Origin: Chitinophagaceae bacterium IBVUCB2 | GTDB taxonomy: Bacteria; Bacteroidota; Bacteroidia; Chitinophagales; Chitinophagaceae | Assembly (NCBI GenBank): GCA_002127295.1 | Contig: NFUV01000001.1 | Location: 806,001 to 870,000 of the forward strand | Direction of reading: 5' to 3' | Length of the DNA stretch: 64,000 nt | Shown: positions 20,466 to 32,128 of the stretch, piece after piece | Numbering within the stretch: the stretch's first letter is position 1 | Layout: each line of letters opens with the position of its first letter | Translations under genes and position numbers: made by a program | The notes under the pieces: generated by a model | The model's input: only the letters and a program-made list of their open reading frames with translations | Told to the model about the DNA's origin: nothing | Databases searched by the model: none

Positions 20466-21236
20466 TCAGCCCAATATGGACGAAAGGAATGATTTTGTGG
20501 CTGCATTAACATTCGTGCTGTTTTCCAACGCTTTAATGTAGGCACTGCCAATTATGGCACCGTCAGCCAGCTTACAAACGGCATCGAAGCTCTCTTTATT
20601 GCTGATTCCAAAGCCCACTAAAACCGGGTTTTTAAGACTATATGATCTCAGCCTTTTCAGGTATTCTTCCGGACTGGCAGATTTTTTTTCGCTGCCTGTA
20701 GTGGACGAAGAGGATACGGCATATAAAAAACCGGAACTAAGACTATCTAATTTTTTGATTCGCTCTTCAGAAGTTTCTGGTGTTACCAGGAAAATAAAAT
20801 CGAGATTATATTTTTTAATGATGGCTCCGTACTCTGTTTCAAATTCATACTCGGGCAAGTCGGGCAGAATTAGCCCATCAATACCAACGGCGGCGGCATC
20901 GGCACAAAAATTTTCGAATCCGTATTGTAATACCGGATTCATATAACCCATTAATATTACCGGGATAGAAATTTCTTTTCTGAATGCTTTTAATTGCTCA
21001 AATAAAATTGCAATGGTCATTCCGTTGGCTAATGCTACGCTTCCACTGTGTTGAATTACCGGACCGTCTGCTAAAGGATCGCTGTAAGGCATTCCGAGTT
21101 CTATAATGCTTGCACCGTTAGCTTGAAGTGCATTCATGACTTCCAATGTAGAATTTAATTGTGGATAGCCTGCAGTGCAGTAAACATTAATGATACTTTT
21201 CTTACTATTTTTAAACAGGTCATCAATTCTGCTCAT
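20466..21236 (-). CDS. trpA: Tryptophan synthase alpha subunit
   Basis: Cleaves indole-3-glycerol phosphate to indole, which passes to TrpB. 256 residues, TIM barrel. The catalytic Glu and Asp are seen in IIELGMPYSDPLADGPVIQ. The phosphate-binding loops VGFGISNKE and DGAIIGSAYIKAL are present. It is the last gene of the trp operon. Its start lies inside the 3' end of the small membrane-protein gene (14-nt overlap), so the two are probably translationally coupled. Confidence 0.96.
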   Translation of the reverse strand: MSRIDDLFKNSKKSIINVYCTAGYPQLNSTLEVMNALQANGASIIELGMPYSDPLADGPVIQHSGSVALANGMTIAILFEQLKAFRKEISIPVILMGYMNPVLQYGFENFCADAAAVGIDGLILPDLPEYEFETEYGAIIKKYNLDFIFLVTPETSEERIKKLDSLSSGFLYAVSSSSTTGSEKKSASPEEYLKRLRSYSLKNPVLVGFGISNKESFDAVCKLADGAIIGSAYIKALENSTNVNAATKSFLSSILG

Positions 21237-21762
21237 TCGTCATGATTTTTTTAATTCTTCCGGCAATTTTACGTTGCCTTATTCCATATAAATATTGAAG
21301 TAATGAGCCTATAAAAACAGCAATCCATAAAACTTTAGAAACAGTAGAGAGTTTTAATAAAAACACAATAGGAATACCTATTGCACTAATGACAACCCAT
21401 TGTAAACCTTCCATCATATTGGAACTGCTCTCAACAGTGTTCTCCATTTCAATTGTCTTTACTTCATACCAAAGATTAGCAGCAAAGTTTATGATTGCTT
21501 CATCGTTCTCAAAAGGTTTCAAAGCTTCAACAACTTCCAAATAAGTTTTATTTTGACCGTATAGCTCTTTTGCAGTTTCAAAAAGTCTATCCCATGATTC
21601 ATGCAAACCTTTTTTTGCAATTACCTCTGCATATGCTGAATCGCAAAATTGCTCTAATACTTCTATAACTTGAGGATGAGACTTCCCCGCATTAAATAAG
21701 TCTTTAGCTACAGTATACAATCTTACTTTTTCTTCAGCCGATAAGGAATTTACTTGTTGCAT
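21223..21762 (-). CDS. Small membrane protein within the trp operon, unknown
   Basis: 179 residues. The N-terminal 120 residues are helical and soluble-looking, with two related stretches (LYTVAKDLFNAGKSHPQVIEVLEQF and LFETAKELYGQNKTYLEVVEALKPF, each quoted from its core: AKDLFNAGKSHPQVIEVLE and AKELYGQNKTYLEVVEALK). That suggests an internal duplication with a period of about 50 residues. Two membrane segments follow (about 125-142 and 146-164), then a basic C-terminus. It sits between trpB (8 nt) and trpA (14-nt overlap), so it is co-transcribed with the operon. I do not know the family, and a role in tryptophan synthesis is not implied. Confidence 0.7.
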   Translation of the reverse strand: MQQVNSLSAEEKVRLYTVAKDLFNAGKSHPQVIEVLEQFCDSAYAEVIAKKGLHESWDRLFETAKELYGQNKTYLEVVEALKPFENDEAIINFAANLWYEVKTIEMENTVESSSNMMEGLQWVVISAIGIPIVFLLKLSTVSKVLWIAVFIGSLLQYLYGIRQRKIAGRIKKIMTNEQN

Positions 21763-21770
21763 ACTAGTTA

Positions 21771-22964
21771 TTATGTTATTGTTTCCATATAAGTTGCTAA
21801 ATCCTTATCCCCTCTCCCACTCAAACAAATCACTACCACATCTTCTTTTTTAAATTTCATTTGCTTCAATGCCGATAATGCATGGGCCGTTTCCAATGCC
21901 GGAATAATTCCTTCCAGCTTCGCTAACTCAAATGCTGCTGTTAATGCATCCTCATCCGTAACACTTAAAAAAGTACCCCGACCACTTTTAAATAAATGTG
22001 CATGCAATGGACCAATACCCGGATAATCTAAACCGGCAGAGATACTATGCGGCTCCACCACTTGTCCATCATCCGTTTGCATCAGCAAGCTTTTACTACC
22101 ATGTAAAATACCCGGCTTCCCTAATGCGGTTGTTGCTGCACTCAATCCACTATCAATACCATGACCCGCCGCTTCCACAGCTATCAATTGTACACTCAAC
22201 TCATCTAAAAAATGATAAAATGCACCGGCTGCATTACTGCCACCACCAACACAAGCCATTACATGAGTTGGCAACTCGCTACCGGTTTTCTCCAGCAATT
22301 GTTTTCGCATTTCTTCACTTATCACACTTTGAAATCTTGCTACCATATCTGGGTAAGGATGCGGCCCCACTACGCTGCCGATTATATAATGCGTATCATG
22401 CGGATTGTTGATCCAATCCCGTATTGCTTCATTCGTTGCGTCTTTCAATGTTTTACTGCCGCTGGTGGCCGGTATCACTGTTGCACCCAGCATTTTCATT
22501 CTCGCTACATTCGGTGCTTGTCTTTCAATATCCTTTTCTCCCATGTACACAATGCATTCCACCCCTTTCAATGCACAGACCGTAGCTGTTGCTACTCCAT
22601 GCTGACCAGCACCTGTCTCTGCAATAATTCTTTTCTTCCCCAATCGCTGCGCCAATAATATCTGACCGATCGTATTATTTATTTTATGTGCCCCGGTATG
22701 GCAAAGGTCTTCCCGTTTCAAATAAATAGTAGTACCAAATTGCTCACTCAACCGTTCTGCTAAATACAATGGTGTTGGTCTGCCCACATAATCCCGCAGC
22801 AAGTATTGAAACTCTTTTTGAAATTCCTTTTCATAAATAATTCCCATGTACTTTGTTCGCAAATCTTCTACATTGCGATGCAGCATTTCCGGAATATATG
22901 CACCTCCGAACAAGCCGTAATAACCTTGTGCATTTGGTTGCTGATATGTTGCTCTCGTTGACAT
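21771..22964 (-). CDS. trpB: Tryptophan synthase beta subunit
   Basis: PLP enzyme joining indole and serine to tryptophan. 397 residues, standard TrpB1 length. The PLP lysine lies in [17 protein letters not shown], and the phosphate-binding glycine loop is [13 protein letters not shown]. The [13 protein letters not shown] substrate loop with its catalytic glutamate is also intact. It is separated from the preceding operon gene (GIY-YIG type) by 124 nt, the longest gap inside the operon. Confidence 0.97.
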
Positions 22965-23088
22965 TAAATTATTTTTTTGAACCCAGTTTCAGTACTACTA
23001 TCATCACCTGTTGCGTCGCACTCGTCGAGGTTCTGTTCTCTATTCAGCATTACTCGTCTATCACCAAAAAAGAATTATCTATTCTAAT

Positions 23089-23712
23089 TTATAGTTTTTT
23101 AAGCCGTCTAAAATTATACTCTGTACCGTCATAATCTTTTTTTATTTCATAATCATGATAATACTCTTTACAAACAGCAATAAGAATAGCCTTTGCTTTG
23201 TTAATAGAACATGAATATACTTCTTCAGCATCTTGCAATTTATTATCATGCTCGTAATTAAATGCCCTTGAGTATTCATTTAACTTGAATTTTATTTTGG
23301 GCTCAAGGCTACCAGCAGTGGAACTAAATATTACAAAAATGAACTCCCAATCATTTAACCCTGCGTATTTAGTTCTATTTAATGATTCGCTTCTTATTTC
23401 AATTCCTTTCGAATACCCAACTTTTAAAACCTTCCCATTTTTTGACCCGGCGATATAAATTATACCGCTATAATCATTTCGTTTCTGAAATTCTAAATGC
23501 TTTGTATCACATTGTATGCAATGCCCATTTCTTGTCCTAAGAGTGTGGTTTCCTCTTTTGCAAGGAGTGACGTTAAAAGCAACCACCTTCCCTTGTTGCT
23601 TCATTTGAATGTAATAATAGCTTTTGGAGAACCCTTTAGCATCAAAAACCTTCTCCAAAGGAACATTATGCTTTTTTAAGAATTCAAGTTGTTCTTGTGA
23701 CAAACCTTTCAT
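23089..23712 (-). CDS. GIY-YIG-like (T5orf172/MUG113) protein with zinc-finger-like motif
   Basis: 207 residues. About residues 82-150 resemble the T5orf172/MUG113 branch of the GIY-YIG nuclease superfamily: GIIYIAG, then KVLKVGYS, an arginine in the following helix (IRSESLNR) and a glutamate further on (SLEPKIKF, Glu137). Just before it, Cys51, His56, Cys65 and Cys68 form a plausible zinc finger (PCKRGNH, then GHCIQC). The gene lies in the trp operon between trpF and trpB, where it has no obvious metabolic role, so it was probably inserted there. The 124 nt after it, up to trpB, hold no gene and include an unusual GC-rich stretch near 23010-23035. Activity and target are unknown. Confidence 0.6.
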   Translation of the reverse strand: MKGLSQEQLEFLKKHNVPLEKVFDAKGFSKSYYYIQMKQQGKVVAFNVTPCKRGNHTLRTRNGHCIQCDTKHLEFQKRNDYSGIIYIAGSKNGKVLKVGYSKGIEIRSESLNRTKYAGLNDWEFIFVIFSSTAGSLEPKIKFKLNEYSRAFNYEHDNKLQDAEEVYSCSINKAKAILIAVCKEYYHDYEIKKDYDGTEYNFRRLKKL

Positions 23713-23743
23713 CTTACAATTTTAGTTTTTGGACCTTATCCAT

Positions 23744-24373
23744 TTACCTCTTCAAACCCTGTTTAAACGACAGCACCAATCCCATATCCTTCACTCCCGG
23801 TTCTTTCTCAAAACGACTATTAATGTCTACGCCAAAATAATCAGGATGTTTGAAGTCCTTTATTCTGGCTGCATCTTCTACACCAATACCACCACTTAAA
23901 AAGAAAGGTTTTTCAATTTTTGCTTTTGTCAAAATGCCCCAGTCAAATTGCTGGCCGGTGCCACCAAATGTTTCTTTTAGTCCACCGGTATCAAATAAAT
24001 AATAATCACATACCGCATCATATGGTGCAACAAGCTCATCGATATCCACTCCATCCGTAACCCGAAAAGCCTTTATCACTTCTACTTCACTACTCAGGTC
24101 TTCGCACATTTCAGGGCTTTCGTCACCATGCAGCTGCACTACCTCTAACCCATAATCATCAATAGCATCTAACACATCAATCATCTCAGGGTTCACAAAC
24201 ACACCCACTTTTTTTAGATCAAAGTCTGCATTCTTTATATCTTTCTTAGAAAGCTTATCACCAATATATCTCGGAGAGTCTTTAAAAAAAATCAATCCTG
24301 CAAAATCAATATCCAATCCATCTAATTGTTGCAGTTGTTTCATTTCTGTGATACCACATACTTTAATATTCAT
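23744..24373 (-). CDS. trpF: Phosphoribosylanthranilate isomerase, second copy
   Basis: 209-residue TIM barrel that converts phosphoribosylanthranilate to CdRP. Both catalytic residues are visible: Cys7 (KVCGIT) and the Asp in YLFDTGG. The phosphate-binding parts SPRYIG, FGGTGQQFDW, FFLSGGIG and VDINSRFEKEPGVKD are complete and closer to the usual TrpF pattern than those of the first copy. It follows the first copy by 10 nt on the same transcript. Confidence 0.93.
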   Translation of the reverse strand: MNIKVCGITEMKQLQQLDGLDIDFAGLIFFKDSPRYIGDKLSKKDIKNADFDLKKVGVFVNPEMIDVLDAIDDYGLEVVQLHGDESPEMCEDLSSEVEVIKAFRVTDGVDIDELVAPYDAVCDYYLFDTGGLKETFGGTGQQFDWGILTKAKIEKPFFLSGGIGVEDAARIKDFKHPDYFGVDINSRFEKEPGVKDMGLVLSFKQGLKR

Positions 24374-24383
24374 CGTTACTATT

Positions 24384-25019
24384 TTATTTTCTTAATTCGT
24401 TTACAAATAATTGGATCATATTGATATCTTTTACCCCGGCCACTACCTCGAATTTGTTTCCCAGGTCAACCGCAAATAATTTTTTTGCAACCGGTTCATC
24501 CGCAAATTCATTCAGTTTCGCTGCATCACCCGGCTCTATTCCTCCACTCAATAAAAACAATTTATCAATTTGCTTATCCTTCAATACAGCAAGATCCAGC
24601 TTCTTTCCTGTTCCCCCATAACCAACTCCTAATGTATCGAACATAAACATATCAGCGTATTCATTGTATGGCCTTGCCATCCATTCAATCGGGTCGTTCG
24701 AACTTAACCGAAAAGCTTTTATTACAGTTACATAATCAGAAAGCTTATCACAGAACCGTTCTGTTTCATCCCCATGCAGTTGTACCATATCCAACCGGTA
24801 GTCTTCTACCGTCTTCATAATGTTCTCGTATGTTTCGTTTACAAACACACCAACCTTACCAATACGGCCGCCGATCTTTTTCATTTTATCCGGTGCAATT
24901 TTCAATCCCATATATCTTGGCGATTTGGGATAAAAAATAAAACCCGCCAGGTCAATACCCATTTCTTCAAGGGCATTTACCTGTTCCGGCAATGTCATGC
25001 CGCAGACTTTGATTCTCAT
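24384..25019 (-). CDS. trpF: Phosphoribosylanthranilate isomerase, first copy
   Basis: 211 residues, homologous over its whole length to the next gene. Cys7 (KVCGMT) and the Asp in FMFDTLG are present, as are KSPRYMG, YGGTGKKLDL and FLLSGGI. The C-terminal loop differs from the usual PGVKD pattern (VDLGNKFEVVAGVKD), which lies near the ligand phosphate, so its activity or specificity may have shifted. Its start overlaps the trpC stop by 1 nt (TAATG), so the two are translationally coupled. Confidence 0.9.
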   Translation of the reverse strand: MRIKVCGMTLPEQVNALEEMGIDLAGFIFYPKSPRYMGLKIAPDKMKKIGGRIGKVGVFVNETYENIMKTVEDYRLDMVQLHGDETERFCDKLSDYVTVIKAFRLSSNDPIEWMARPYNEYADMFMFDTLGVGYGGTGKKLDLAVLKDKQIDKLFLLSGGIEPGDAAKLNEFADEPVAKKLFAVDLGNKFEVVAGVKDINMIQLFVNELRK

Positions 25020-25813
25020 TACGCTTTTGCATTTAGTTGCTTTATAAAATCAGCAAAAGCAATCGTTGGGTCGGCTTCTTTCATAAAAGTCTCGCCGATC
25101 AAAAAACCTTTGTATCCTGCTCCCCTTAAAGTTACAATAGCATCGGCATTACTGATGCCACTTTCGCTAATGGCCGGTTTTCCTGGAGGAATTTTATCAA
25201 TAAGTTTCAAAGATGTTTCAATATTCACTTCAAAAGTCTTCAGGTTGCGGTTGTTTACTCCCACCATGTCCACTTCGTCACAAATATGCTCCAGCTCTTC
25301 TTCATTATGTATCTCAAGAATTGATTCGAGACCAATACTTCTCGTATAAGTTGCAAAATCTTTTACTTCAGCAGGCGTAAGACAAGCTGCTATAAGTAAA
25401 ATCACATCAGCGCCAAAAGCTTTGGCTTCGGCGATCTGCCATTTATCAATAATAAAATCTTTACGCAGCACCGGAATATCACTCACCACTTTTGCCTGTA
25501 TAAGGTCGTCCAAATCTCCACCAAAAAATTCATCATTGGTCAATACAGAAATTCCAGCTGCATGCTTATTATAACCAACAACAACCGGTTCTACTTCCAG
25601 TTCTTTTGTTTTGAACCATCCTTTACTTGGACTTTTTCTTTTAAACTCTGCTATAATCCCTGTGCTACCTGGCAATAATAAACTCTGCACCAACGAACGG
25701 TTTCTTATCTGCCAGAAAAACCCATCTCTTTCAAACCTTTCGATGCTACTCATCGGTTTGAACTTTTCCACTTCTTTTCTTTTTGCCGCAATAATTGTTT
25801 CTAAAATATCCAT
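25019..25813 (-). CDS. trpC: Indole-3-glycerol-phosphate synthase
   Basis: Closes the indole ring from CdRP. 264 residues, TIM barrel. Visible are IIAEFKRKSPSKG with the catalytic lysine, VLTNDEFFGG, VLRKDFIIDKWQI with the second catalytic lysine, LEIHNEEEL, VGVNNRNLKTFEV and ISESGI. It is a separate protein, not fused to TrpF as in E. coli. Confidence 0.97.
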   Translation of the reverse strand: MDILETIIAAKRKEVEKFKPMSSIERFERDGFFWQIRNRSLVQSLLLPGSTGIIAEFKRKSPSKGWFKTKELEVEPVVVGYNKHAAGISVLTNDEFFGGDLDDLIQAKVVSDIPVLRKDFIIDKWQIAEAKAFGADVILLIAACLTPAEVKDFATYTRSIGLESILEIHNEEELEHICDEVDMVGVNNRNLKTFEVNIETSLKLIDKIPPGKPAISESGISNADAIVTLRGAGYKGFLIGETFMKEADPTIAFADFIKQLNAKA

Positions 25814-25860
25814 TGGTATAAATCAAAATTCAAAAAAATAAAACCCAAAAAAATCCACCA

Positions 25861-26853
25861 TTAAGTCATTTGTATAAGTTTATTCAGGCACTTATTTGCT
25901 CTCCCGCTTTCCAAACTTTCTACAGCTTCGCCATAGGCTTCCTCATAGGTTTTATAATTTCCCGTGCAATGTAAAGCCATGGCTGCATTCGCCAATACCA
26001 CCGCATTCTGTGCAAATGTCCCTTCTCCTTTTAATATAGTGGTGAAAATCCTCGCCGCTTCTTCCACACTGTTTCCACCACTTATATCCTCCGGCGAAAC
26101 CATCCGTTTTCCTAATTGCTCCGGTGTCATTATTCTTTCACCCTCATTGGTTATTACTTTGGTATCGTTAGTTAAAGAAATTTCATCGTACCCATCCAAA
26201 CTGTGAATGATAGTGAATGCCTTTCCTGTTTGTTGTAATAAATAATTATAGATCCTCGCCATTTCTAAGCTATACACTCCAACCAATTGAAATCTCGGAT
26301 GTGCAGGATTGGCCATTGGACCAAGCATGTTGAAGAAAGTCCGCATGGCCAGGTTCTTTCTAATCGGGCCAACTGTTTTTAAAGCCGGGTGAAATAACGG
26401 TGCATGCAAGAAACAAATATTCGCTTCTTCAATTTCCTTTTTCAGTTTATTATTATCATTCCTGAAGTTGTATCCCAACTGCTCCATCACATTACTGGCG
26501 CCGCTTATAGAGGAAGCACCATAATTACCATGCTTTGCCACTTTTTGTCCAGTGCCGGCAACAATAAAACAAGAGAGTGTAGAAATGTTAAAGGTGTTCT
26601 TTCCATCACCACCTGTACCAACAATGTCGAGTGTGTCATACTCACTCAAATCTGCTTTTACGCAAAGCTCTAACAATGCATCTCTAAAACCTTGCAGTTC
26701 CTCAATAGTAATGCTTCGCATCAGGTACACGGTCATAAAAGCAGTCACTTCATGCTCGTTGTACATTCCTTTACCAATGTTCACTAATGCATCTTTTGCC
26801 GCCTCCCGGCTTAACGTTTTATGCTCAAATAAATATTGAAGTATTTTCTTCAT
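25861..26853 (-). CDS. trpD: Anthranilate phosphoribosyltransferase
   Basis: Transfers phosphoribose from PRPP to anthranilate. 330 residues, the family's usual size. Visible are the PRPP loop DIVGTGGDGKNTFNIST, KHGNYGASSISGASNVMEQLGY (read as KHGNYGASS), and FLHAPLFHPALKTVGPIRK (anthranilate site). It is not fused to TrpG. A 47-nt AT-rich spacer precedes trpC. Confidence 0.97.
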   Translation of the reverse strand: MKKILQYLFEHKTLSREAAKDALVNIGKGMYNEHEVTAFMTVYLMRSITIEELQGFRDALLELCVKADLSEYDTLDIVGTGGDGKNTFNISTLSCFIVAGTGQKVAKHGNYGASSISGASNVMEQLGYNFRNDNNKLKKEIEEANICFLHAPLFHPALKTVGPIRKNLAMRTFFNMLGPMANPAHPRFQLVGVYSLEMARIYNYLLQQTGKAFTIIHSLDGYDEISLTNDTKVITNEGERIMTPEQLGKRMVSPEDISGGNSVEEAARIFTTILKGEGTFAQNAVVLANAAMALHCTGNYKTYEEAYGEAVESLESGRANKCLNKLIQMT

Positions 26854-26884
26854 TGTATCATTTTCAAATTTCCAGACTGTACTA

Positions 26885-27457
26885 TTAGTTTTTCAACCAG
26901 TTTCTTAAAATATCTTCTCCCATCGGCGTCAAAACACTCTCCGGATGAAACTGCACCCCTTGCACATCATAGTTTTTATGTTGCAATGCCATGATGTAAT
27001 TATTTTCATCCCTGGCTGTAACTTCTAATTCTCCTGGAAAATTTTTCTCTGCAATTATCCAACTATGATATCGGCCCACTTCTAATGTTTCAGGCAATCC
27101 TTCAAATAGAGGTGATTTCCTTTCCTTATCAACCATTACCGGAGTGGCCACTCCATGATAAACAGTTGAAAGATTAGTCAACGTTCCGCCAAATGCTTCA
27201 CCTATCGCCTGGTGGCCGAGACAAACACCAAGAATTGATTTTGTTGCAGCATATTCTTTTATCAAAGACAATAATAATCCGGCTTCTTCCGGAATACCCG
27301 GACCGGGAGATAAAATGATCTTATCATAGTCCTTTACTTGCTCCATTGCTATCTGGTCGTTACGATACACATCTACTTTTGTATGCGTTATCTTCTCCAC
27401 CAGGTGAACAAGGTTGTAAGTGAACGAATCATAATTATCAAAAACAAGAATTTTCAT
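26885..27457 (-). CDS. trpG: Anthranilate synthase component II (glutamine amidotransferase)
   Basis: Supplies ammonia to TrpE. 190 residues, class I amidotransferase. The triad is visible: Cys in LGVCLGHQAIGEAFGG, and His/Glu in QFHPESVLT. DNYDSFTYNLVH at the N-terminus and LSPGPGIPEEAG are typical. Its start lies 1 nt after the trpE stop, so the subunits are translated together. A dual role in folate synthesis (PabA) is possible but not shown. Confidence 0.96.
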   Translation of the reverse strand: MKILVFDNYDSFTYNLVHLVEKITHTKVDVYRNDQIAMEQVKDYDKIILSPGPGIPEEAGLLLSLIKEYAATKSILGVCLGHQAIGEAFGGTLTNLSTVYHGVATPVMVDKERKSPLFEGLPETLEVGRYHSWIIAEKNFPGELEVTARDENNYIMALQHKNYDVQGVQFHPESVLTPMGEDILRNWLKN

Positions 27458-27458
27458 A

Positions 27459-28874
27459 TCAAATATTTTCTGCTAACACAATAGCTTTTTTTAATGCTCC
27501 TAATTTGTTATTCACTTCCTGCAATTCACTTTCCGGATTGCTGGCTGCCACCACCCCTGCTCCGGCCTGGTAAGTGAGTGTATTATTCCTGCTTAAAAAT
27601 GTTCTGATCATTATTGCATGATTACAACTGCCATCAAATCCAATAAAGCCGATAGCACCACCGTAATAAGTTCTGGATGTTGGCTCATACGAATCGATCA
27701 ATTCCATGGCTTTGAATTTTGGCGCACCACTTAATGTACCAGCAGGAAATGTTTTTGCTACCATCTCAAATGGATTACTTCCTGTTCTTATTTTACCAAC
27801 TACTTCACTTACCAAATGAATAACATGCGAAAAATATTGCACCTGGCGATAATGTGCAACTTGTACATCATCACACAGTCTACTTAGATCATTTCTTGCC
27901 AGATCAACCAGCATTACATGTTCGGCATTTTCCTTGGCATCTTTTAATAAAGCTTCAGTAGCGATTTTATCCGCTTCATCATCTCCCGTTCTTTTAAATG
28001 TGCCGGCAATCGGATGAACAACAGCTTTGCCATTCTGAATCACCAACTGTGCTTCGGGAGAAGAACCCATTAGTTTATAATCCCCATAATCAAAAAAGAA
28101 TAGATATGGTGATGGATTAACACTTCGCAATGCCCTGTACACATTAAACTCATCACCAATAAATTTTTGCTGAAATCTTCTGCTCAATACAATTTGAAAA
28201 ACATCTCCTCTATGACAACTGGCAATTCCTTTCTTCACCATTTCTTTATATTCATCATCGGTCATGTTTGAACTTTCTTCTCCTTTTGTGCTAAAAGGAT
28301 AAACAGGAACATCCTTACTTCGTATCAACGACTCAACAGCTGCTACATCACTGTCTATTCCGTTGATTTTATTTTCACAAATGAATAACTCATCTTTAAA
28401 ATGATTAATAGTAATTACATATTGGTAAAGGCGGTACCGCATTAAAGGGATAGTATCAGGTTTTGGGTCCCTGGTTTCGAGTTTTACAGTTTCAAAGAAC
28501 TGAACTGCATCATAGGCAGTATACCCAAACAGTCCTTGTGCAAATTTCTCTTCCTTCAATTCACCTTTCTTGCTATCAAATTTTTGCATGAAGTTCCAGA
28601 GCAGTTGCGGCACCTCGTTCGAGTTCGTCAATGCAATTTTTTCTGGTTTTTGTCCGGGAATTTTGAACTCGATACTTTTTGATGAACTAATTTCCATTCC
28701 ACCAATTGCATTGATACAGATAAATGAATAACTGTTTTCGGACGAATGATGGTCTGTACTTTCCAACAGGATAGTATCCCGGAATTTATCCCGTAGCCGC
28801 AAGTAGATGCCTACCGGTGTAAATACATCTGCCAGTAATCGTTTACAGGTCGTATTTATTTCTATTTTCTTCAT
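27459..28874 (-). CDS. trpE: Anthranilate synthase component I
   Basis: Chorismate to anthranilate, the committed step. 471 residues. Family motifs include GDVFQIVLSRRF, LMGSSPEAQLV, HPIAGTFKRTGDD, HVMLVDLARNDLSR, FPAGTLSGAPKFKAME, YYGGAIGFIGFDG and the C-terminal YQAGAGVVAASNPESE. Near the N-terminus, LLESTDHHSSENSYSFI includes the LLES segment linked to tryptophan feedback inhibition. It is the first structural gene of the operon, 16 nt after the leader terminator's 3' region. Confidence 0.97.
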   Translation of the reverse strand: MKKIEINTTCKRLLADVFTPVGIYLRLRDKFRDTILLESTDHHSSENSYSFICINAIGGMEISSSKSIEFKIPGQKPEKIALTNSNEVPQLLWNFMQKFDSKKGELKEEKFAQGLFGYTAYDAVQFFETVKLETRDPKPDTIPLMRYRLYQYVITINHFKDELFICENKINGIDSDVAAVESLIRSKDVPVYPFSTKGEESSNMTDDEYKEMVKKGIASCHRGDVFQIVLSRRFQQKFIGDEFNVYRALRSVNPSPYLFFFDYGDYKLMGSSPEAQLVIQNGKAVVHPIAGTFKRTGDDEADKIATEALLKDAKENAEHVMLVDLARNDLSRLCDDVQVAHYRQVQYFSHVIHLVSEVVGKIRTGSNPFEMVAKTFPAGTLSGAPKFKAMELIDSYEPTSRTYYGGAIGFIGFDGSCNHAIMIRTFLSRNNTLTYQAGAGVVAASNPESELQEVNNKLGALKKAIVLAENI

Positions 28875-28890
28875 TTGCTATAAAATAAAA

Positions 28891-28910
28891 GCCCCGAACA
28901 ATGTCGGGGC
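28891..28910 (-). terminator. trp attenuator (intrinsic terminator in the leader)
   Basis: Read on the minus strand, GCCCCGA and TCGGGGC form a perfect 7-bp stem with a 6-nt loop. TTTTATTTT follows directly, and the trpE ATG comes after a few more bases. It would end transcription before trpE when tryptophan is plentiful. Confidence 0.85.
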
Positions 28911-28952
28911 CTGAATATAATGGTACAATACGGTTATGACATTACAGACCCC
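28906..28952 (-). promoter_or_regulatory. trp antiterminator pairing
   Basis: On the minus-strand transcript, GGGGUCUG (28952-28945) at the end of the leader peptide can pair over 8 bp, including one G-U, with CAGGCCCC (28913-28906). The second segment contains the 5' arm of the terminator, so the two structures exclude each other. A ribosome stalled at the Trp codons leaves GGGGUCUG free. A ribosome reaching the peptide stop codon, which follows it directly, covers it. Confidence 0.75.
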
Positions 28953-28998
28953 TTAGAGTTGTATGCCACCACCAAATATTGTTTGAATGCTTTATCAC
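28942..28998 (-). CDS. trpL: trp leader peptide
   Basis: An 18-residue peptide, (M)IKHSNNIWWWHTTLRGL, read from GTG 28998 to TAA 28942. It has three consecutive Trp codons (TGG TGG TGG, complementary to 28966-28974). It lies between the operon promoter and the attenuator. Only 4 nt separate the -7 element from the GTG, so the leader mRNA would be leaderless or nearly so. It is too short to be found by length-limited gene calling. An overlapping longer frame on the same strand ends nearby, but it starts upstream of the promoter and has no Trp run. Confidence 0.8.
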   Translation of the reverse strand: MIKHSNNIWWWHTTLRGL

Positions 28999-29002
28999 AG
29001 GG

Positions 29003-29033
29003 CAAATATAGAAGCAAAATCGACATTCGCAAA
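29003..29033 (-). promoter_or_regulatory. trp operon promoter
   Basis: On the minus strand: TTTG (29033-29030), a 19-nt spacer and TATATTTG (29010-29003), an exact match to the Bacteroidota promoter. It precedes the leader peptide and drives trpE through trpA. Confidence 0.8.
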
Positions 29034-29065
29034 TTCTTTTTACTTTTATTCCTTAATCTATTAAT

Positions 29066-29347
29066 ATGCTGATTCATCATAAACAAGTTGGCTCTAAGGG
29101 TATGTTTTATGTAGGCGAAGAGGATAATATCCAGGCTGAAATAGTTTATACAATGCCTGGCGAAGAAAAAATGATTATTGAACATACCGAGGTAAGTGAT
29201 GAACTGCGGGGGCAAAATGTAGGATACCAATTGGTGCATTCTGCTGTAGAATATGCCCGCAAGCATAACCTTAAGATAATTCCGCTATGCCCGTTTGCTA
29301 ATGCTGTATTTAAGAAAAAGCCGGAATTCGCTGATGTACTTAATTGA
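29066..29347 (+). CDS. Small GNAT-type acetyltransferase-like protein
   Basis: 93 residues of the short GCN5-related family (YjdJ / NATD1 type). Visible features are the strand FYVGEEDNIQAEIVYTM (in part), the acetyl-CoA-binding segment EVSDELRGQNVGYQLVHSAV (quoted core: LRGQNVGYQLVHSAV) and the C-terminal IIPLCPFANAVFKK with the conserved Cys-Pro-Phe. These proteins are thought to acetylate small molecules or protein amines, but the substrate is unknown. The gene is divergent from the trp operon. Confidence 0.85.
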   Translation: MLIHHKQVGSKGMFYVGEEDNIQAEIVYTMPGEEKMIIEHTEVSDELRGQNVGYQLVHSAVEYARKHNLKIIPLCPFANAVFKKKPEFADVLN

Positions 29348-29509
29348 TTGCACTAGTAGAGAAAATGCTGCTTTTTTCTTCTCAATTGATATTTCTTTTT
29401 CATGTGTAGCCCTGTTTACAGGCAATAAGCTCCGTTTAAAAAAAATCATACCTATTGCATCGCTGTGTGGCTATTACTTGCTTACCTTAGGTTACAAAAT
29501 TTACCACTT

Positions 29510-31966
29510 ATGCCAAAAAAATCTATTGCTTTTATCAGCACTTTATTCTTCCTGATTTTTACTTTGTTTGTAAAAGCACAGGATGATGGTGGATATAAAA
29601 CACCGCCAAAAGATATTGCTGATATGTTATTAGCAAAGAGTTCTCCCAACGTAAGCCTGGATGATAAAGGCGAATGGATGTTGTTCACACAAAGTAGCAG
29701 TTACCCTTCTGTGGAAGAACTTGCAAGACCCGAATTAAAAATTGCGGGGCTCCGCATCAACCCGGAAAATTTTTCACCAAGCCGGCAGAACTATGTAAAT
29801 GAGCTATACTTAAGAAGTGTAAGTACTAACAAGGAATTTAAAATAACCGGTCTCCCATCTCCTTTGTTTGCAGGAAGTATAAGCTGGAGTCCCAATGATA
29901 AGAAAATTGCTTTCATACATACTACAAACAGCAGAGTGGATTTGTATGTAATTGACGTAGCTACCCAAAAAGCTACTAAAGTAAATAAGACTGCATTAAA
30001 TGTAATTGGTGGAGGTGCATTTCAATGGCTGGATGATAATACCCTGTTATACAAAACAACATTGAAAGCTGCCAATGCAGCACCTGCAAAACCACCTGTA
30101 CCAAAAGGCCCAACTGTACAGGAGAATTATGGCAAAGCTACTCCGCGGCCTACTTACCAGGACTTAATTAAAAGTCCCTACGATGAACAGTTGTATGAAT
30201 TTTATGCCACTACACAATTGGTAAAAAATGTAAATGGCGCAGAGACAAAAATTGGTCAGCCTGCTATTTACAGCAGTTTCTCCGTTTCTCCTGATAAAAA
30301 ATATATGATCGTAAGAACGTTAAAGAAACCATTTTCTTACACCGTTCCTGCTAATGGTTTTCCATCGGTTGTTGTAATTACAGATATGAATGGAAAAACA
30401 GTAAAGCATTTAGCTGATCTGCCATCTGCTGAAACTGCACCCAGCGGCAATGACAATGTTCAGATGTTTCCACGCAGTTTTGACTGGAGAGATGATGAAG
30501 CCGCTACCGTTACCTGGTGTACTGCCCTGGACAGTGGCTTTATAAAAAAGAATGTCGACTACCATGATGCTGTGTACGCATTAACTGCCCCATTTAATAC
30601 AACTCCAAAAGAACTGTTCAAAACAAAAATGCGTTTCCGTGGTGTTAACTGGGGCAATGCAAATTTTGCATTAGTCAATGAAGGTCTTACCGGCAAACAA
30701 CGTACACAAACAAACAAATACAATCCATCAACCGGTGAAATTTCAATGCTGATGGAAAGAAATACAACCGATGCCTATTCAAATCCTGGTTTTCCTGTCA
30801 CAGAAAAAAATCAGTATGGCCGTGATGTAATTAAGTTGATCGATAATGGCAGCAAGCTGTTGATGAATAATCCTACGGGAAGTTCGCCCAAAGGCGACCT
30901 TCCTTTCCTGGCAACTTTTGATATAGCGACTAAGAAGACTGATATTATCTGGCGTTCAAACGAAGGTTATTTTGAAAATGTAGTTCGTGTAATGGATGCC
31001 GACAAGCTGGTTTTATTGACCCGCCGTGAAAGTGAAAAGGAAATGCCAAACTACTGGATTAAAAATTTGAAATTAAAAGTAGCAGACAGACAATTAACAA
31101 CCTTCTCCAATCCTTACCCACAACTAGAAGGTGTAAGCAAAGAAAAAATAAGATATAAAAGAGCCGATGGTGTTGACCTTACAGGTGACCTTTACTTACC
31201 AAAAGGTTATGATGCAAAACGAGATGGCAAACTACCTGTATTAATATGGGCTTACCCTGCTGAATATAATTCAGCTGCTGATGCAGCACAAATTCGGGGT
31301 AGCGAACACAAGTTTACTTTAGTTGGCGGTGGCTCCCCTATTTTTTATGTTACACAAGGTTATGCTGTATTGAACAATGCAGAGATGCCGATCGTAGCTA
31401 CCAGCAAAGACAAAAAACCTAATGATAATTTTATTGAGCAGTTAACGATGAATGCAGAAGCTGCTATCAACGTATTGGATTCAATAGGTATTGGCGACAG
31501 AAACCGTGTGGCAGTGGGTGGACATAGCTATGGTGCATTTATGACTGCTAATCTTCTTGCTCATACCAAACTGTTTAAAGCCGGCATTGCAAGAAGCGGT
31601 GCTTATAACCGCTCCTTAACTCCATTTGGTTTTCAAAATGAAGACCGTACATATTGGCAGGCGTTGGATTTATACACTGACATGAGTCCGTTTACACATG
31701 CAGATAAAATCAAAACTCCTATTCTTTTAGTCCATGGCGAAATGGATAACAATACCGGTACATTCCCCATACAGAGCGAAAGAATGTTTAATGCTATAAA
31801 AGGAAATGGTGGCACTGTAAAATTTGTAAGTCTTCCTTATGAATCGCATGGCTATGCTGGTCGGGAAAACGTATTGCATACATTGGCTGAACAGTTTAAC
31901 TGGCTGGAGAAATATGTGAAGAATGCTGATAAGAAGCAGAAAGATGATGGCAAGAAAGCTTTTTAA
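29510..31966 (+). CDS. Secreted S9-family peptidase, glutamyl endopeptidase-like (S9D)
   Basis: 818 residues when started at ATG 29510, which gives a signal peptide (MPKKSIAFISTLFFLIFTLFVKAQ). An earlier in-frame start would put 15 residues before it and spoil the signal. The N-terminal part is a beta-propeller; the C-terminal part is an alpha/beta hydrolase. The triad is visible: Ser in GGHSYGAFMTANLLAH (GHSYG), Asp in LVHGEMDNNTG and His in PYESHGYAGRE. The stretch GIARSGAYNRSLTPFGFQNE is nearly the same as in plant chloroplast glutamyl endopeptidase, which points to subfamily S9D. Likely role is periplasmic peptide degradation. Confidence 0.9.
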   Translation: MPKKSIAFISTLFFLIFTLFVKAQDDGGYKTPPKDIADMLLAKSSPNVSLDDKGEWMLFTQSSSYPSVEELARPELKIAGLRINPENFSPSRQNYVNELYLRSVSTNKEFKITGLPSPLFAGSISWSPNDKKIAFIHTTNSRVDLYVIDVATQKATKVNKTALNVIGGGAFQWLDDNTLLYKTTLKAANAAPAKPPVPKGPTVQENYGKATPRPTYQDLIKSPYDEQLYEFYATTQLVKNVNGAETKIGQPAIYSSFSVSPDKKYMIVRTLKKPFSYTVPANGFPSVVVITDMNGKTVKHLADLPSAETAPSGNDNVQMFPRSFDWRDDEAATVTWCTALDSGFIKKNVDYHDAVYALTAPFNTTPKELFKTKMRFRGVNWGNANFALVNEGLTGKQRTQTNKYNPSTGEISMLMERNTTDAYSNPGFPVTEKNQYGRDVIKLIDNGSKLLMNNPTGSSPKGDLPFLATFDIATKKTDIIWRSNEGYFENVVRVMDADKLVLLTRRESEKEMPNYWIKNLKLKVADRQLTTFSNPYPQLEGVSKEKIRYKRADGVDLTGDLYLPKGYDAKRDGKLPVLIWAYPAEYNSAADAAQIRGSEHKFTLVGGGSPIFYVTQGYAVLNNAEMPIVATSKDKKPNDNFIEQLTMNAEAAINVLDSIGIGDRNRVAVGGHSYGAFMTANLLAHTKLFKAGIARSGAYNRSLTPFGFQNEDRTYWQALDLYTDMSPFTHADKIKTPILLVHGEMDNNTGTFPIQSERMFNAIKGNGGTVKFVSLPYESHGYAGRENVLHTLAEQFNWLEKYVKNADKKQKDDGKKAF

Positions 31967-31987
31967 TAAAACTGATTTTAATATTGA

Positions 31988-32013
31988 AACCCTGGCTTTT
32001 GCCGGGGTTTTTT
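31988..32013 (+). terminator. Terminator of the S9D peptidase gene
   Basis: A 9-bp stem with one T-G pair (AACCCTGGC with GCCGGGGTT), a TTTT loop and a T run. Confidence 0.8.
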
Positions 32014-32128
32014 ATTTAAACCTTATTCCATAAATTTAATATAGCTTACAAGTCACTTTATGTTATTCCCACCTTTGAAAAAGCTCTGCGCTTTAGAAGC
32101 ATTTTTTTATTACTACTAAAAAAAAATT

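Follow-up and report, generated by a model that had tools for sequence, protein, structure and literature searches.

The trp leader of Escherichia coli carries two Trp codons and a Shine-Dalgarno site. Its attenuator, represented in Rfam by family RF00513 (Trp_leader), combines Trp codons in a short open reading frame (ORF) with a Trp-codon helix, an antiterminator and a terminator, as does the locus described here. All attenuators of Corynebacterium glutamicum analysed by Neshat in 2014 are reportedly leaderless. Attenuators of this organism have been described for trp, ilvBNC, leuA and aroF, the trpE gene being preceded by a leader peptide with three consecutive Trp residues (PMC4046766), and a title cited in the same paper refers to formation of the ilvBNC leader peptide without a ribosome binding site.

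Within the Bacteroidota, a Trp leader RNA is likewise on record as the "Bacteroidete tryptophan peptide leader RNA" (RF01692, Bacteroid-trp), which is included in the motif table of Weinberg 2010 (PMC2864571). The transcriptome paper on Flavobacterium psychrophilum, a member of the same phylum, speaks of "strong clues" for leader-peptide attenuation, likewise ahead of amino-acid biosynthesis operons (PMC9723704), and ribosomes of Bacteroidia are stated not to recognise Shine-Dalgarno sites (PMC9976891). Among the titles and abstracts listed by our literature search, in which few subscription journals were covered, none dealt with leaderless attenuators of Bacteroidota or with the trp, his or phe leaders of Chitinophagaceae. 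An earlier note on this DNA had described regulation of this kind as much less studied in the phylum, which is a fair description, but one that passed over RF01692 and the attenuation clues from F. psychrophilum.

Here we analysed a stretch of 64,000 nucleotides from Chitinophagaceae bacterium IBVUCB2 (referred to as the window), in which a trp operon is preceded by such a leader. The window aligned over the whole RF00513 model with a score of 32.9 bits (E 2.5e-05), below the cut-off of 41 bits; unlike the E. coli attenuator, it has three Trp codons and no Shine-Dalgarno leader. With the attenuators of C. glutamicum it has the Trp-Trp-Trp leader in common, whereas phylum, promoter and sequences differ. 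RF01692 gave no match in the window at the gathering threshold, and none on 28860-29060 at E values up to 10. Upstream of trpE in relatives, RF01692 exceeded its 49-bit cut-off in one of six sources (L125) and in four of 20 further loci (L120, L121, L131 and L151), with L105 (43.5 bits) and L154 (40.4 bits) near the cut-off; the 20 loci tested from Chitinophagaceae, Chryseobacterium and their kin all stayed below it. The five positive loci all come from one family (f5), probably the Flavobacteriaceae. The trp attenuator in the window is well supported, and its functional kind is already catalogued in the Bacteroidota.

The trp leader in the window

The earlier note had placed upstream of trpE an exact promoter, an 18-residue peptide with a Trp-Trp-Trp run, an 8-bp antiterminator and an intrinsic terminator with which the antiterminator has one arm in common. 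Every one of these parts was located on the minus strand, confirming that the features are real (Table 1), and the arm GGGGTCTG (28952-28945) does adjoin the TAA stop codon of the peptide (28944-28942), as had been claimed. The two promoter elements, TTTG and TATATTTG, are separated by a 19-nt spacer. The leader begins 4 nt after the -7 box with a GTG, which is the sole ATG, GTG or TTG codon between the previous in-frame stop and the Trp run. The run TGGTGGTGG was seen twice in the window against 0.23 copies expected, the second copy lying inside trpB (22240-22248); because two or more copies also arise in 4 of 100 shuffles of the window, the Trp run alone is weak evidence. Among the genes of the operon, trpE found its best match in TIGR00564 with 414 bits, under the cut-off of 517.7, and the two phosphoribosylanthranilate isomerase genes scored below the NCBIfam cut-offs and above the Pfam cut-offs.

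Table 1. Positions of the trp leader, the trp operon and the predicted his and phe/tyr attenuators of the same genome (positions are those of the window unless C1 of the own genome is named)
Feature	Position	Strand	Basis or remark
-33 element TTTG of the Bacteroidota sigma-A promoter	29030..29033	-	sequence
-7 element TATATTTG (TAnnTTTG)	29003..29010	-	sequence
Predicted transcription start, first base of the GTG start codon	28998	-	inferred from box spacing
trp leader peptide ORF VIKHSNNIWWWHTTLRGL, 18 codons/18 aa, GTG start 28998, TAA stop 28944-28942	28942..28998	-	
Three consecutive Trp codons TGGTGGTGG, sensor codons	28966..28974	-	sequence
Trp-codon helix, strand 1	28965..28974	-	consensus fold, pair counts
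Trp-codon helix, strand 2, directly 3' of the stop codon	28931..28940	-	fold, pair counts, substitution types
Antiterminator 5' arm GGGGUCUG (DNA GGGGTCTG), adjoins the stop codon	28945..28952	-	
Antiterminator 3' arm CAGGCCCC, common to the terminator	28906..28913	-	
Intrinsic terminator, stem 28912-28904 / 28897-28889, then T-run	28882..28912	-	
trpE, anthranilate synthase component I, first operon gene, ATG at 28874	27459..28874	-	best profile match and gene order
Remaining trp operon: trpG, trpD, trpC, two trpF-like genes, T5orf172 protein, trpB, unassigned gene, trpA	20466..27457	-	
Two adjacent phosphoribosylanthranilate isomerase (PRAI, trpF-like) genes	23744-24373 and 24384-25019	-	
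T5orf172-domain protein gene within the trp operon, near trpB	23089-23712	-	
Unassigned 179-aa protein gene within the trp operon, near trpB	21223-21762	-	
Predicted His attenuator before hisG (L173): MIKHTHNHHHFLLPTSRL	own genome, C1, box from 530730		8 nt between -7 box and ATG
Predicted Phe/Tyr attenuator before the PDT (pheA-like) gene (L176): MTTTSTYFGFYFYYFFNKRPGMLLLKTN	own genome, C1, upstream of 772240	-	

Conservation of the Trp-run leader in relatives

A search of the genus for trpE gave a match in 30 of 42 genomes, TrpE-like paralogues counted, and wider trpE loci were taken as the best 80 of 580 confirmed matches from genome contigs. Six duplicates, one truncated locus and matches without the N-terminus were removed, and 93 loci were kept, the window's own included. 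An ORF with a Trp run (TGGTGG) precedes trpE in 86 of these 93 non-duplicate loci; the loci are related, with near relatives still among the 86, so that counts over either set are not independent. The run is WWW in 79 loci and WW in 7, the leader ORF begins with ATG in 81 and with GTG in 5, and 83 of the 86 ORFs are distinct, the Trp run being held in frame within a short ORF whose surrounding codons vary. The recurrence of the Trp-run ORF before trpE thus makes the run more than chance, despite its weak statistics in the window. A permissive finder located a terminator in all 86 loci. The earlier note had proposed a comparison of trpE upstream regions among relatives, and in this comparison the paired helices were kept along with the Trp run. 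The seven loci without the run comprise L018 with W-R-W, five with a single Trp in a similar ORF and L060 with nothing recognisable. L080, L085, L089, L093 and L095 have a leader-like ORF with a single Trp codon, yet also a terminator-like hairpin upstream of trpE.

At the level of the phylum, 198 genomes were sampled, and 170 of them had a trpE match at 1e-60. We took 60 upstream regions, 45 from the same family, order or class (all matches, the window's genome excepted) and 15 from more distant members. A Trp-rich leader precedes trpE in 45 of the 45 class-level loci (39 WWW, 4 WW and 2 W-x-W) and, by reading, in seven of the 15 more distant loci (L158, L160, L161, L163, L164, L165 and L168). 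The covariance model R1 was dropped as a survey tool, as it matches other places too, for example positions 31938-32020 of the window. It scores 33.3 bits there on the plus strand, at the end of the gene at 29465-31966, and the match is probably an ordinary terminator.

Paired helices of the leader

Pairs were counted on an alignment (A1) of 57 of the 86 loci, from which 29 had been left out before counting, either as near-duplicates (L008, L033, L049, L052, L088 and L094) or because their helices were different or oddly placed (L055, L062, L072, L074-L076, L078, L092, L096, L097 and L099-L111). The consensus fold of A1 contained the terminator and, unasked, a further helix in which the Trp codons pair with the stretch just past the stop codon. 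In the terminator, 96.5% of cells were paired, compared with 32–67% in slid versions, and five pairs had double changes, with none of 500 shuffles reaching the level of the real helix. In the antiterminator, 71.9% of cells were paired, compared with 24–57% in slid versions, and its 22 double-change cells, among them three sequences with A-U in place of a core G-C, were reached by none of 500 shuffles. Two measures did not set the antiterminator apart from shuffles of A1: its count of double-change pairs was reached in 70 of 500 shuffles and its count of pair types in 42 of 500. Counts on A1 understate the pairing of this helix, because in one group of loci the GGGG stands one column further to the left.

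The earlier note had described the leader as a simple two-structure layout. This layout is incomplete, since the third helix, formed by the Trp codons and the stretch 3' of the stop codon, is conserved across the 57 sequences, with 94.9% of cells paired, compared with 27–61% in slid versions. It had no double changes on A1, and 27 of 500 shuffles reached its percentage; double changes are absent because one strand is fixed by the Trp codons and only the other can vary. Transitions are the kind of substitution that preserves pairing with U or G. In the columns of the second strand we counted 105 transitions and 22 transversions, compared with 172 and 288 in the other columns of A1. The Trp-codon helix is the counterpart of the E. 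coli 1:2 helix, and with it the leader follows the three-helix logic of that attenuator. Neither this conserved helix nor the position of the GTG start 4 nt after the -7 box had been described in the earlier note. Loci whose helix letters differ greatly have re-made the pairing, as in L105 (Chryseobacterium) and L107 (Kaistella), where CAAAGTCTT pairs with AAGACTTTG.

Tested as a duplex, the antiterminator was better than shuffles at p <=0.05 in only 55 of the 86 loci, the test having clipped the terminator arm in the Chitinophaga group, which led to poor scores there. A swap control, in which the own pairing reached -14.35 kcal/mol compared with -12.21 kcal/mol, gave only modest support: no more than 26 of 86 loci had their own terminator ranked within the top 10% for the leader, and the reverse held in 22 of 86. 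The weak specificity is due to most loci sharing GGGG/CCCC. The longest antiterminator run begins 11–15 nt past the last Trp codon in 61 of the 86 loci.

Mutually exclusive helices are common to several kinds of attenuator, and folds alone do not name the sensor. The terminator and antiterminator might accordingly be run by a T-box, a Trp-binding protein (TRAP) or a riboswitch, with the Trp run incidental. We consider this very unlikely. No Rfam family reached its cut-off in the window, which speaks against a T-box or a riboswitch known to Rfam, and a switch operated by anything other than a ribosome is at odds with a Trp run kept in frame while neighbouring codons vary, with the 11–15 nt distance and with the His and Phe/Tyr runs found at the corresponding position ahead of hisG and of the PDT gene (see below). 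An intergenic terminator ahead of an operon can also be incidental, either as the plain terminator of an upstream transcript or as a decoy, accompanied by a chance Trp-rich ORF. The gene on the other side of the leader (29066-29347), which encodes a small acetyltransferase, is divergent, however, so that the terminator serves no upstream gene, and this reading, which is also opposed by the conservation of the leader and by the double changes in both terminator and antiterminator, is exceedingly improbable. The evidence favours a switch operated by a ribosome on the leader peptide.

Ribosome position and folding of the nascent leader

In a thermodynamic model, the nascent transcript was folded as far as the terminator loop, and bases covered by the ribosome, which was given a chosen footprint of 12 nt, were kept from pairing. 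The readout was the share of the terminator 5' arm held by upstream RNA, and a share of 0.5 or more was taken as antitermination. With the ribosome on the Trp codons, the model gave antitermination in 85 of the 86 loci, but in only 6 of them once the ribosome stood at the stop codon, in line with the earlier note, according to which a ribosome at the stop codon would mask the arm and allow termination and one stalled at the Trp codons would not. Sequence and model agree that the antiterminator is placed such that the first of these ribosomes covers it and the second does not. Without a ribosome, antitermination was obtained in 27 of 86 loci, counter to the expected off state. For the leader in the window, the model gave 0.78–0.80 with the ribosome on the Trp codons (0.78 at the last of them), 0.15 at the stop codon and 0.18 without a ribosome. 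The full three-state pattern was found in 62.8% of the 86 real leaders, compared with 5.7% of 860 shuffled ones.

We propose the following sequence of events. Transcription would begin on the leader start codon or no more than a few bases from it, and a ribosome would load on the 5' end of the RNA without a Shine-Dalgarno site. When Trp-tRNA is scarce, the ribosome would stall on the three Trp codons and break the Trp-codon helix; GGGGUCUG would then be free to pair with CAGGCCCC, the terminator would be blocked and trpE would be transcribed. When Trp-tRNA is ample, the ribosome would reach the stop codon and cover GGGGUCUG, and the terminator could form. Without a ribosome, the Trp-codon helix would hold the upstream arm, and termination would be favoured. 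It is very probable that a ribosome-mediated transcription attenuator sets transcription of the trp operon by the supply of charged tRNA-Trp. The likeness to the E. coli attenuator seen in the earlier note is supported by the conserved Trp codons, the terminator, the compensated alternative helix, the distance that fits a ribosome and the presence of a full trp operon.

Promoter spacing and start of the leader

The -7 box was scanned over the range of 0–13 nt before the start codon and scored by letters out of six. At least five of the six letters were present in 73 of the 86 trp loci, 4–10 nt before the start codon, with the full box in 26 loci; in shuffled upstream sequence, five or six letters were found in 22% and the full box in 1.6%. 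A distance of 7 nt was the one observed in 44 of the 73 loci with a good box. The TTTG -33 element matched in all four letters in 63 of the 86 loci, with spacers mostly of 19–20 nt. As a control, we used 43 mechanically called ORFs of at least 200 aa in the window: none had a full box 3–10 nt before its first start codon, and when any early ATG was allowed, a full box preceded one and five or six letters preceded 8.

In F. psychrophilum, the TAnnTTTG box is reported at -12 to -5 (PMC9723704), and by this rule the transcript of the window is predicted to start on the G of the GTG start codon. In Flavobacterium johnsoniae, the -7 box is reported 4–5 nt ahead of the start site, and with a 5-nt spacing from box to start site the transcript is predicted to begin inside the GTG. 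With only 4 nt between the -7 box and the start codon, the leader peptide of the window is predicted to be leaderless or nearly so, and box distances of 4–10 nt likewise predict an untranslated leader of 0 to 6 nt in the 73 loci.

The attenuator could be real and its ORF still have an ordinary short leader, with a transcription start further upstream. In the class-level set, 38 loci had a good -7 box, and its distance to the start codon was bimodal, 4–10 nt in 22 and 16–21 nt in 16, and the latter group would fit an ordinary leader. Leaderless or very short leaders are also a minority in those members of the phylum for which mapped starts are reported, amounting to 5.5% in F. psychrophilum (PMC9723704), to about 3.7% when leaders under 10 nt are counted and to at most 13% with leaders of 10 nt or less in F. 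johnsoniae. For the window itself an ordinary leader is rather unlikely: its complete TTTG-N19-TATATTTG promoter ends 4 nt before the GTG, a good box stands as close as 4–10 nt in most of the trp loci, and similarly short distances recur before the his and phe leaders of the genus (next section).

Leaders of other amino-acid operons

In the same genome, a predicted His leader precedes hisG and a predicted Phe/Tyr leader precedes the PDT gene (Table 1); behind each lies a terminator, for which a matching arm exists upstream. The Phe/Tyr leader has a full promoter, a -7 box 6 nt before the ATG and a strong terminator. Across the genus genomes that were at least 90% complete, a His leader was present in 13 of 14 hisG loci and a Phe/Tyr leader in 17 of 19 PDT loci. 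The -7 box lies 3–9 nt before the start codon in 13 of 13 his leaders, 12 with six of six letters and one with five, and 4–7 nt before it in 17 of 17 phe leaders when the nearer ATG is counted, three phe loci (L203, L205 and L209) having a choice of two in-frame ATGs, one 4 nt and the other 13 nt from the box. The folding model, run on these leaders without a shuffle control, gave antitermination with the ribosome stalled in 13 of 13 his and 17 of 17 phe leaders. Once the ribosome stood at the stop codon, none of the 13 his and none of the 17 phe leaders did so, and without a ribosome antitermination was obtained in 3 of 13 his and 16 of 17 phe leaders.

Two further candidates were not counted. 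An Ile/Leu-rich leader candidate before leuA, MISIALLFKVI (L179), has no clear intrinsic terminator, and the short ORF before an aspartokinase-homoserine dehydrogenase gene (L181), which ends in eight Thr codons and an Arg codon, is followed by a hairpin without a clear T-run; it is a possible Thr leader. No leader was found directly before ilvD of the own genome, a gene that closely follows another.

Genus genomes of 1.7–2.1 Mb that were at least 90% complete matched neither hisG nor PDT and gave no close match for trpE, some of them having a distant trpE paralogue only. These small genomes look like those of amino-acid auxotrophs beside larger prototrophs of the same genus.

Discussion

Judged from the leaders compared here, Trp control by a ribosome on a leader peptide appears to extend past the loci of the Bacteroid-trp model, to Chitinophagaceae and to the trpE loci of the whole class-level sample. 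A switch of this type works only if a ribosome follows RNA polymerase closely, and the comparison of leaders is thus evidence that transcription and translation are coupled in a phylum that lacks Shine-Dalgarno initiation.

We lean towards the view that a common design underlies the Trp, His and Phe/Tyr attenuators of these Bacteroidota: -7 box and leader start codon would be fused, and ribosomes would begin the peptide at the bare 5' end of the emerging transcript, leaderless starts being the rule for attenuators. If this is true, the leaderless start would let the first ribosome load immediately and become coupled to RNA polymerase, and leaderless attenuators would be used in a phylum that does without Shine-Dalgarno sites and in which most mRNAs have leaders. 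Should mapping confirm the near-leaderless start of the three attenuators in this one genome, they would offer a direct and cheap test system for 5'-end initiation in Bacteroidota.
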